64,000 nucleotides of DNA from Calothrix sp. PCC 7103 (GTDB taxonomy: Bacteria; Cyanobacteriota; Cyanobacteriia; Cyanobacteriales; Nostocaceae), in NCBI RefSeq assembly GCF_000331305.1, contig NZ_KB217478.1:5119595-5183594 (forward strand), given 5' to 3'. Position 1 is the first letter of the stretch, and every line of letters starts with the position of its first letter. The notes below the pieces were generated by a model, which was not told the origin of the DNA, did not search any database, and worked only from the letters and a program-made list of their open reading frames with translations. Below, piece by piece: positions 49,675 to 51,342 of the stretch. A program made the position numbers and the translations under genes.

Positions 49675-51342
49675 ATGAAACTGTGGCAACCCGACCAACC
49701 ACTTGATAATGGCAGGTTCATAGTTCAAAAATTCATTGCTCGCGGTGGTTATGGTGCTACCTACAGTGCAATTGAACTACGTACAAATAAATTAGTTGTA
49801 ATCAAAACCCTTAATCTTGAACTACAAAGTAAACCTGATTTCCCACAGCAACAGGTAAAATTTGTTAACGAAGGACTGCGGTTAGCACAATGCAGTCACC
49901 CCAATGTCGTAAAAGTCCATGAACTGATACAGGAAGATGGGCTTTGGGGAATGGTAATGGAATATATAGATGGGCAAGACTTGGGAAGTTACGTTTCAGA
50001 ACATGGAAAATTGCCTGAAGATGAAGCTTTGCAGTATATAACCCAAGTTGGACAAGCATTAGAATACGTCCATTCCAAAGGATTTTTGCATCGCGATGTC
50101 AAACCGAATAATATAATTTTGCGCGCGGCAACAAAAGAAGCAGTCTTGATTGATTTTGGTTTAACAAGAGAATATAGTATTGGTCAATTAGGAAGCATGA
50201 CAAATGCGAAAACAGATGGTTATGCACCAATCGAGCAGTATGAAAGAAAGGGAGAATTTGCTCCTTACACTGACGTTTACGCTTTAGCAGCAACATTATA
50301 TAGTTTGCTAACTCAAGAAATACCATTCCCTGCAAATTTTAGAAAGACAGGTATTCCCTTACCTCCACCGAAGCAATTTAATGACAAGATTAGCGATAGG
50401 GTGAATGATGCGATACTAGCAGGAATGACCCTGGAACCAAATGGGCGCCCGCAAACTATACGCGAGTGGTTAGAAGTATTGAGTGATTCGTCTAGTTCAA
50501 CGATTCCAACCAAGCGGTTTGAATTTGAATATGCAACATTAACTGTTGTAGGTAAAGAAGAAGAGTGCAAAATTACCCGTCATCGTGGACAAGCAGAATT
50601 TTTTACAGAAAACCTCGGCAATGGTGTCGTTTTGGAAATGGTGAAAATCAAGAGCGGTACTTTTATGATGGGTTCGCCGGAGAATGAAGATGGGGAACAT
50701 GAAAGTCAGCGTCCGCAACACCAAGTTACTGTTCCAAGCTTTTTCATGGGTAAGTTTGCTATTACTCAAGAACAATACACTGCAATAATGGGCAAAAATC
50801 CTTCTGTCTTCTCAGGGGCAAAACGTCCTGTGGAACAAGTAAGTTGGCATGATGCTGTCAACTTTTGTGTCAAAATTTCTGCTCATACTGGCAAAAATTA
50901 TCGTTTACCGAGTGAAGCTGAATGGGAATATGCTTGCAGGGCTGGAACTACTACCTCATTTCACTTTGGTGAGACTATCACCACAGATTTAGCTAATTAT
51001 AACGGTGATTATACATATGGCTCTGCTCCTAAAGGAAAATATCGCGAACAGACTACAGATGTAGGAAGTTTCCCTGCTAATCAATTTGGTTTGTATGATA
51101 TGCACGGTAACATTTGGGAGTGGTGCCAAGATAATTGGCATAACAACTATAATGAGGCGCCATCTAACGGTGATGTATGGTTAGATAATGATAATAATAA
51201 TCGTTATCATATGCTGCGCGGTGGTTCGTGGTTCAACGGTCCGCATGTCTGCCGTTCTGCTTTTCGCAACCGGCTCACTCCCGACTACGATAACGGCATC
51301 AGCGGTTTTCGGGTGGTGTGTGGTGGTGCGGCGAGGACTTAA
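49675..51342 (+). CDS. Ser/Thr protein kinase fused to an FGE/C-type-lectin-fold domain; probable DGR target
   Basis: 555 residues. Kinase (about 12-275): Gly loop RGGYGATY, K44, HRDVKPNN with D141, and DFG at 160-162. Residues 295-555 are a formylglycine-generating-enzyme-like (CLec) domain: [62 protein letters not shown] and LRGGSWFN. The protein ends [12 protein letters not shown], which I recognise from variable proteins of cyanobacterial diversity-generating retroelements. Just before it, variable-looking codons all end in C or T, as expected from A-mutagenised AAC/AAT. The fold probably displays a diversified ligand-binding face coupled to kinase signalling. True FGE enzyme activity is unlikely. 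Confidence 0.85.
   Translation: [555 protein letters not shown]
51190..51342 (+). repeat. Probable DGR variable repeat (VR)
   Basis: The 3' end of the kinase-FGE gene. Codons at likely variable sites are TTC, AAC, GGT, CAT, GTC, TTT, AAC, CTC, ACT, TAC, GAT, AAC, GGC and ATC. All have a fixed pyrimidine third base and free first two bases, which fits templates of AAC or AAT. Flanking invariant words are CGCGGTGGTTCGTGG and GGTTTTCGGGTGGTGTG. Local GC is higher than in the rest of the gene. The exact left border is uncertain. Confidence 0.75.

Follow-up and report, generated by a model that had tools for sequence, protein, structure and literature searches.

A kinase–FGE gene and the features at its 3′ end

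We analyzed a 64,000-nucleotide stretch of DNA from Calothrix sp. PCC 7103 (the window, C7:5119595-5183594), in which positions 49675..51342 on the plus strand encode a 555-aa protein composed of a Ser/Thr kinase and an FGE/C-type-lectin-type (CLec) domain, as assigned from Pfam, sequence motifs, and AlphaFold2. An earlier reading, made from the sequence only, had claimed such a fusion, and Pfam found both parts: PF00069 (Pkinase) at aa 17-221 with 140 bits and PF03781 (FGE-sulfatase) at aa 321-548. The Hanks-type kinase motifs are all present (VIK42, HRD139, and DFG160), and the attached kinase is apparently active. No signal peptide or membrane segment was evident by eye in the protein, and the putative sensor that it represents is probably cytosolic.

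The AlphaFold2 model, built on a 37-sequence alignment, reached a mean pLDDT of 88.9 and a pTM of 0.55, with a mostly confident FGE domain that contains a weak stretch at aa 496-507. For the FGE half, a phmmer sequence search was more telling than Foldseek, which we discarded as a guide: the 50 PDB matches listed were kinases only and the 50 BFVD matches listed were mostly kinases, because the kinase half of the protein dominates. The sequence search of the FGE half against solved structures gave 29 matches, of which the best was PvdO (5hha, E 2.3e-37) and the second was TvpA (2y3c, E 5.7e-24), the variable protein of a diversity-generating retroelement (DGR) of Treponema; formylglycine-generating enzymes came after these two. 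An FGE-like protein of Microcystis phage LMM01 (BFVD A0A7F1) showed 39% identity across 230 aligned columns.

The gene ends in a 124-bp variable repeat (VR) at 51212..51335 on the plus strand, which was delimited by alignment to a template repeat (TR) at C7:8400023-8400146 and comprises the full codons of aa 514-553. The end of the VR is separated from the end of the gene by 7 bases, stop codon included. The G-rich constant 3′ end of the VR (51304..51335, plus strand), bounded by TR identity to 51335 and divergence from 51336, is likely the equivalent of the IMH of BPP-1 (PMC3240598). The sequence-only reading had placed a variable repeat at the end of the gene, and its position was borne out, but the proposed extent of 51190-51342 was too long: 51212-51335 is the part that aligns without a non-adenine mismatch. 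The local rise in G+C content that it described is also present (0.613 in the VR vs 0.401 in the rest of the gene and 0.394 in the window).

The stop codon is followed directly by a pyrimidine-rich tract (51344..51388, plus strand) built of imperfect 7-8-nt repeats, whose units from 51346 are CACTTTA, CACTTTTA, CACTTTTA, CCCTTTA, and CTCTCT. It leads into a small G+C hairpin, TCCGCC[AAA]GGCGGA (51388..51402, plus strand), and then into a T-run, GCGAATTTTTT (51403..51413, plus strand), which may be a terminator, a part of the element, or both. The tract is outside the TR/VR homology, and homing therefore cannot copy it.

Template, cassette, and related genes

We searched the whole genome (11.58 Mb, 12 contigs) with window positions 51181-51342 as the query. 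Among 30 matches, the best besides the query itself was C7:8400023-8400146 (88%), followed by C7:8402598-8402741 (80%). The former is the TR, located 3.23 Mb from the VR in the same genome. The two align over 124 bp without gaps, and all 15 mismatches fall at TR adenines, with 0 changes at the other 95 positions (hypergeometric P = 9.7e-12, given 29 adenines in 124 positions); relative to the TR, the substitutions are A>T (7), A>G (6), and A>C (2). Within the 40 full codons, TR adenines occupy the first codon position 13 times, the second 15 times, and the third never. No combination of bases at the TR adenines can produce a stop codon, and approximately 2.7e16 protein variants are possible. 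As read from this alignment, the window gene has received a copy of a template located 3.23 Mb away, altered at adenines only.

The 11 codons that had been singled out from the window as resembling mutagenized AAC/AAT (TTC, GGT, CAT, GTC, TTT, CTC, ACT, TAC, GAT, GGC, and ATC) are all present and all end in C or T. Their TR counterparts (AAC, AAT, CAT, AAC, TAT, AAC, ACT, AAC, GAT, AAC, and AAC) each contain an adenine and eight of the 11 are changed, but CAT, ACT, and GAT are identical to the template. We also placed by eye, on aa 521 and 526 of the window protein, what we take to be the positions of the two active-site cysteines of FGE; Asn521 aligns with one of these cysteines, which suggests that the window protein lacks FGE activity. 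The codon of aa 521 contains a template adenine (AAC), and the other cysteine position (526) has none.

The TR belongs to a cassette (cassette A) on the minus strand at C7:8.40 Mb, with the gene order MoxR-like AAA ATPase, SAV_2336-FGE target, VR, Avd, reverse transcriptase (RT), and TR. The RT (374 aa, YVDD, PF00078 with 78 bits) has its stop codon 22 bp before the TR, and Avd was identified by NF033474 DivGenRetAVD (111 bits, cut-off 80) and PF22296 bAvd (61 bits, cut-off 40). Further upstream lie EAD1-VMAP and EAD1-TIR genes, and the neighborhood therefore corresponds to the type of VMAP ternary conflict system that Kaur et al. (PMC7159879) and Dore et al. (PMC10907252) describe. The claim of a remote DGR target, made before any genome search, is thereby supported: the genome contains a template copy with adenine bias, located beside a DGR-type reverse transcriptase and an Avd gene, and the contrary result named in advance, a genome lacking such a template or reverse transcriptase, was not obtained. 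In our judgment, the 3′ end of the kinase gene is very probably a remote (trans) target of a DGR.

An in-frame TAA, either a true mutation or an assembly error, separates the 732-aa frame of the cassette's own target from its VR (L021:6594-9125, C7:8402.6-8405.1 kb). In the same 124 columns, this VR differs from the TR at 15 of the 29 adenines and at 0 of the 95 other positions, and three non-adenine changes appear over a longer alignment of 133 columns. Between the window VR and that of the cassette's own target, differences occur in 23 of the 29 TR-adenine columns and in 0 of the 95 others; the FGE parts of the two genes are only 55% identical in protein. When the first 54 bases of the TR, with A replaced by N, were searched genome-wide at 3 or fewer mismatches, four sites were found (reversed control, 0), namely the window VR, the TR, and the cassette VR at 0 mismatches and C12:805887 at 3. 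Because of the TAA in the cassette's own target, the window gene is, among the 12 FGE genes of the genome, the only uninterrupted one that matches this TR perfectly outside the adenines, and it may therefore be the element's main remaining customer.

Two further DGR cassettes, each with Avd, a TR, and VRs, are located at C10:222 kb and C7:5.99 Mb, and the RT frame of the former contains two TAA. This cassette (L023, C10:218-228 kb) is adjoined by a 506-aa reverse transcriptase frame resembling a group II intron maturase by eye (L023:1055-2575) and by a 430-aa HNH protein that appears IscB-like by eye (L023:8194-9486).

All 12 FGE genes of the genome were compared with the three TRs. Expressed as mismatches at adenines/not at adenines against the best TR, the counts were 15/0 for the window gene, 15/3 for the cassette A target, 13/2 and 15/3 for the cassette B targets, 8/2 for the cassette C target, and 15/14, 14/12, and 17/17 for older copies at C12:805 kb, C10:56 kb, and C10:55 kb, respectively. 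The remaining genes (L026, L031, L034, and L037) matched no TR well, with a best score of 54 or less vs at least 134 for the other eight. One of them, L031, showed an adenine bias against TR-A (P 1.3e-4), yet its changes at adenines/other bases were 18/18. Adenine bias alone is unspecific because template adenines fall at sites where the fold itself varies, and the case for a DGR therefore rests on the perfect identity at the other 95 positions.

The ortholog of the window protein in Calothrix sp. NIES-4105 is 85% identical over the full length. In the kinase part, 19 of 275 amino acids differ, with 57 synonymous codon differences, vs 15 of 41 amino acids and three synonymous codon differences in residues 513-553. 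Among the 40 full VR codons of this one species pair, amino acids are changed in 14 of the 17 with a template adenine and in 0 of the 23 others; base changes occur in 20 of the 29 adenine columns and 10 of the 95 others. The segment, for which invariance had been named beforehand as a contrary outcome, is thus variable against the one sister-species ortholog compared. At E ≤ 1e-40, a single RT of the family was found in NIES-4105, with a template of another type, and a whole-genome scan for the TR-A core found VR-like sites with 2-3 mismatches but no TR matching the window-type VR. The NIES-4105 ortholog therefore looks orphaned, and some orthologs would no longer be diversified. A VR-like FGE end elsewhere in NIES-4105 (L076, G003:C1:529196) carries a tandem expansion (FGNYD repeated) in its variable region.

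The window gene may itself be a former target, now frozen: this DGR would once have rewritten the VR, and homing would since have stopped. The ortholog without a matching TR is in line with this explanation, as are the in-frame TAA of the cassette's own target and the two TAA in one of the three DGR RT frames, which indicate that decay is under way in the genome. However, in the matching cassette both RT and Avd have full-length open reading frames, and the window VR shows 0/95 non-adenine drift from the TR, compared with 14 such changes in the older copy at C12:805k. We regard a frozen window gene as unlikely.

Frozen genes do occur in related genomes. A tandem paralog shared by NIES-4105 and Dulcicalothrix desertica PCC 7102 is frozen, as judged from the comparison of the two: the proteins are identical from ILRGG to the end, and 48 of 696 nucleotides of the FGE part differ. 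Six kinase-FGE orthologs of Okeania, considered as a second example of hypervariation, were rejected as such and serve as a negative control, with the VR region conserved (mean pairwise amino acid difference of 0.117, and 0.103 in the preceding FGE part). From the frozen paralog and the conserved Okeania genes, it follows that a DGR target is recognized by its template, and not by the fusion or the motif on its own. At the equivalent position in D. desertica, a kinase start runs into the end of the neighboring FHA-kinase gene (L102:8006-8819), an arrangement resembling a deletion that removed the FGE-VR part.

The Okeania genes also lend some credit to the view that the window gene is an ordinary FGE/CLec paralog, diverging by duplication and selection with no retroelement involved, and so does the RGGSW...GFRVV motif, which is common to genes without DGR signs. 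The 15/15 adenine specificity, combined with a perfect match at all other positions to a template that adjoins a DGR RT, is decisive against it and makes such an origin extremely improbable.

The pyrimidine tract and hairpin

A scan of 77 FGE ends for a high pyrimidine share suggested that the tract accompanies variable VRs and is absent from TRs and frozen genes, with exceptions. The frozen tandem paralog lacks it (0.48 and 0.52). Ends that were variable by eye but had a weak or absent tract were L060 (0.62), L087 (0.58), L126 (0.58), L130 (0.48), L131 (0.66), L133 (0.70), and one end of L160 (0.44). The tract was also weak or absent at the non-cyanobacterial FGE ends L173, L175, and L176 (0.40-0.56), and L114 (Okeania, conserved VR) scored 0.78 through an unrelated CTGACTC repeat. 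In the older copy at C12:805 kb, the VR has accumulated 15 adenine and 14 non-adenine changes from TR-A, and its downstream tract is still recognizable (0.78); there, a frame that looks TIR-like by eye overlaps the FGE frame with the old VR (L022:3729-5019).

A search for RT homologs covered 145 genomes of the family and was positive in 39 at E ≤ 1e-80; 40 RT loci from this search, together with 7 earlier ones, gave 47 loci. Adenine-biased repeat pairs were then sought without reference to the tract, the finder covering pairs with at least 70 columns, at least 5 mismatches, and 70% of mismatches at A (VRs outside these limits are uncounted). Pairs were obtained in 44 of the 47 loci (none in L190, L210, and L216); dropping two artifacts, a reversed pair in L213 and a tandem repeat in L227, reduced the 53 rows to 51 VRs and 44 TRs. 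The pyrimidine-rich tract followed 51 of 51 TR-matched VRs in the 44 DGR loci and 0 of 44 TRs. Scored as the highest pyrimidine share of any 50-nt stretch in the 110 bases downstream, the values were 0.74-0.94 for VRs (48 of 51 at 0.80 or above) and at most 0.56 for TRs (Mann-Whitney P 3.5e-17, a value that treats loci related by descent as independent). Among the 43 genes of the window, only the kinase-FGE gene reaches 0.80, the next scoring 0.70; on the plus strand of the window, 50-nt stretches at or above 0.80 amount to 0.016% for pyrimidines and 0.081% for purines.

Perfect hairpins, defined as a perfect stem of at least 5 with at least 4 G/C bases (L211 left out), were present in 30 of 51 tracts (50 VRs and the window gene) and were not found by the same rule in the other 21; in 200 shufflings the number averaged 0.27 and never exceeded 2. 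The stems vary with pairing kept, as in CCGCC/GGCGG, CTCGC/GCGAG, TCGCGC/GCGCGA, and GTCGCC/GGCGAC. A fixed hairpin sequence was considered and dropped: the window gene has the genome's single instance of the pattern CCGCC-N3/4-GGCGG-NN-CGANTT, which is the wrong test because stems and their spacing to CGA vary between loci. The idea of a guide RNA, in which TR RNA flanks would be complementary to the tract, received no support (mean longest run of 7.16 vs 7.03 with shuffled tracts).

Because the tract motif was designed from observed tracts, those of this genome included, its specificity here is descriptive rather than an independent test: in the whole genome it occurred at three sites with 1 mismatch or fewer (after the window gene, the cassette A target, and one cassette B target) and at eight sites with 2 or fewer, five of them after VRs (reversed control, 2). 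It misses three of the eight tract-bearing VR genes, as the cassette C target and the two copies at C10:55-56 kb need 3, 3, and 7 mismatches.

The tract and hairpin may instead be only a transcription terminator, or the 3′ flank of duplicated VR modules that was carried along, an explanation that concerns the homing landmark and not the DGR reading. A hairpin followed by a T-run is terminator-like, and duplication would bring the 3′ flank along among loci related by descent. However, a terminator requires no pyrimidine tract, and descent or termination fits poorly with a tract found at every TR-matched VR, at no TR, and at a single window gene at the 0.80 level. Furthermore, 49 consecutive bases (51342-51390) are identical between the window and NIES-4105, whereas the DNA coding for the kinase shows 82 differences in 825 positions; as the tract is missing from the TR, homing could not have restored it. 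In the intergenic DNA past the hairpin, the two genomes match best, locally, over a stretch of 44 bases just before the next gene. We rate a mere terminator or carried-along flank as somewhat improbable.

For a homing function, we put the chance at close to even, slightly below it: the tract and small hairpin would form a portable cis element for cyanobacterial DGRs that licenses mutagenic homing in trans, the loss of which would freeze a paralog and the gain of which would recruit a target anywhere. This licensing role is proposed from an association among related loci. The tract could keep the target strand single-stranded for cDNA pairing, or it could land the RT-Avd-RNA complex. Under the words "pyrimidine" and "polypyrimidine," we found no pyrimidine tract 3′ of DGR targets in the DGR papers examined; the word pyrimidine is absent from the main texts of PMC10907252, PMC8867640, PMC8144416, PMC12875486, PMC6642488, PMC3521204, PMC7517822, PMC3240598, PMC12691664, and PMC7159879.

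Proposed mechanism and known systems

In DGR homing, RT and Avd make a mutagenized cDNA that replaces the VR, aided by the IMH and an inverted repeat (PMC3240598, PMC12875486), and it has been argued that the cDNA pairs at the fork, during the single-stranded phase of the target DNA (PMC12875486). By this known mechanism, the RT-Avd complex of cassette A would reverse-transcribe the template RNA, inserting random bases opposite A, and the product would replace the window VR, anchored by its constant G-rich 3′ end. The tract and hairpin just after the stop codon would, given their association with VRs, mark the window gene as a homing target, and closeness to the cassette would therefore not be needed. 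They may represent a cyanobacterial form of the BPP-1-type downstream landmark that enables remote homing.

The rewritten residues would lie on the ligand face of the FGE/CLec domain, and ligand binding by this variable face would alter or govern the attached Ser/Thr kinase. Perhaps the variable face senses a ligand from an invader; because the cassette lies among VMAP, MoxR, and TIR genes, invader recognition is our first guess. The sensor may also serve the tuning of ordinary signaling.

At the scale of a whole genome, the locus clearly illustrates the match of a DGR to a signaling kinase 3.2 Mb away. If the tract licenses homing, it would help explain the recruitment of dispersed DGR targets, supply a search rule for remote targets that are blurred by identity thresholds, and offer a part for directed evolution in cyanobacteria.

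Remote kinase-CLec targets in cyanobacteria are already published: Vallota-Eastman et al. (2020) (PMC7517822) report 76 remote targets over 21 cyanobacterial genomes, the paralogs most often being a lone CLec domain or a CLec domain grafted to a putative serine kinase. They predict that most remote kinase-CLec proteins are cytosolic, propose an autoinhibitory CLec or substrate selection, and suggest cruciforms or IMH sites as cis features. The window gene resembles those targets in its N-terminal Ser/Thr kinase, its C-terminal CLec/FGE domain, a VR near the 3′ end, and its distance from the RT, but its match to the TR is perfect at non-adenine sites, whereas the threshold in that paper is 50% TR identity.

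Trans-diversification with a perfect non-adenine match is also already published, for Thiohalocapsa PB-PSB1 (Dore et al. 2024, PMC10907252), which shares with the present case a distant TR matched at all non-adenine sites and a link to VMAP/MoxR. That organism is a purple sulfur bacterium in which population diversity was measured, whereas our case draws on a genome sequence and one between-species comparison. Low-level adenine mutation has been reported in a culture of Nostoc punctiforme (PMC12691664), and at least 11 of 18 TR/VR loci of Trichodesmium are hypervariable in metagenomes (PMC8867640). As with TvpA of Treponema denticola (2y3c), the window protein has an FGE-like domain, and the phmmer alignment to TvpA continues through the VR region; TvpA is described as an outer membrane lipoprotein (PMC10907252), whereas the window FGE domain is fused to a kinase.

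The arrangement at the 3′ end is most readily compared with that of BPP-1 (Guo et al. 2011, PMC3240598), which likewise combines a 3′-terminal VR of mutagenic homing with a downstream inverted repeat, the structure of which matters more than its stem sequence. BPP-1 needs only approximately the first 24-35 bp after the VR, with an 8-bp stem, and loops in phage DGRs are of 4 nt (GRNA). The window hairpin, in contrast, starts 52 bp after the VR, behind the pyrimidine tract, and stems at cyanobacterial tracts are mostly 5-6 bp, with loops of 3-4 nt.
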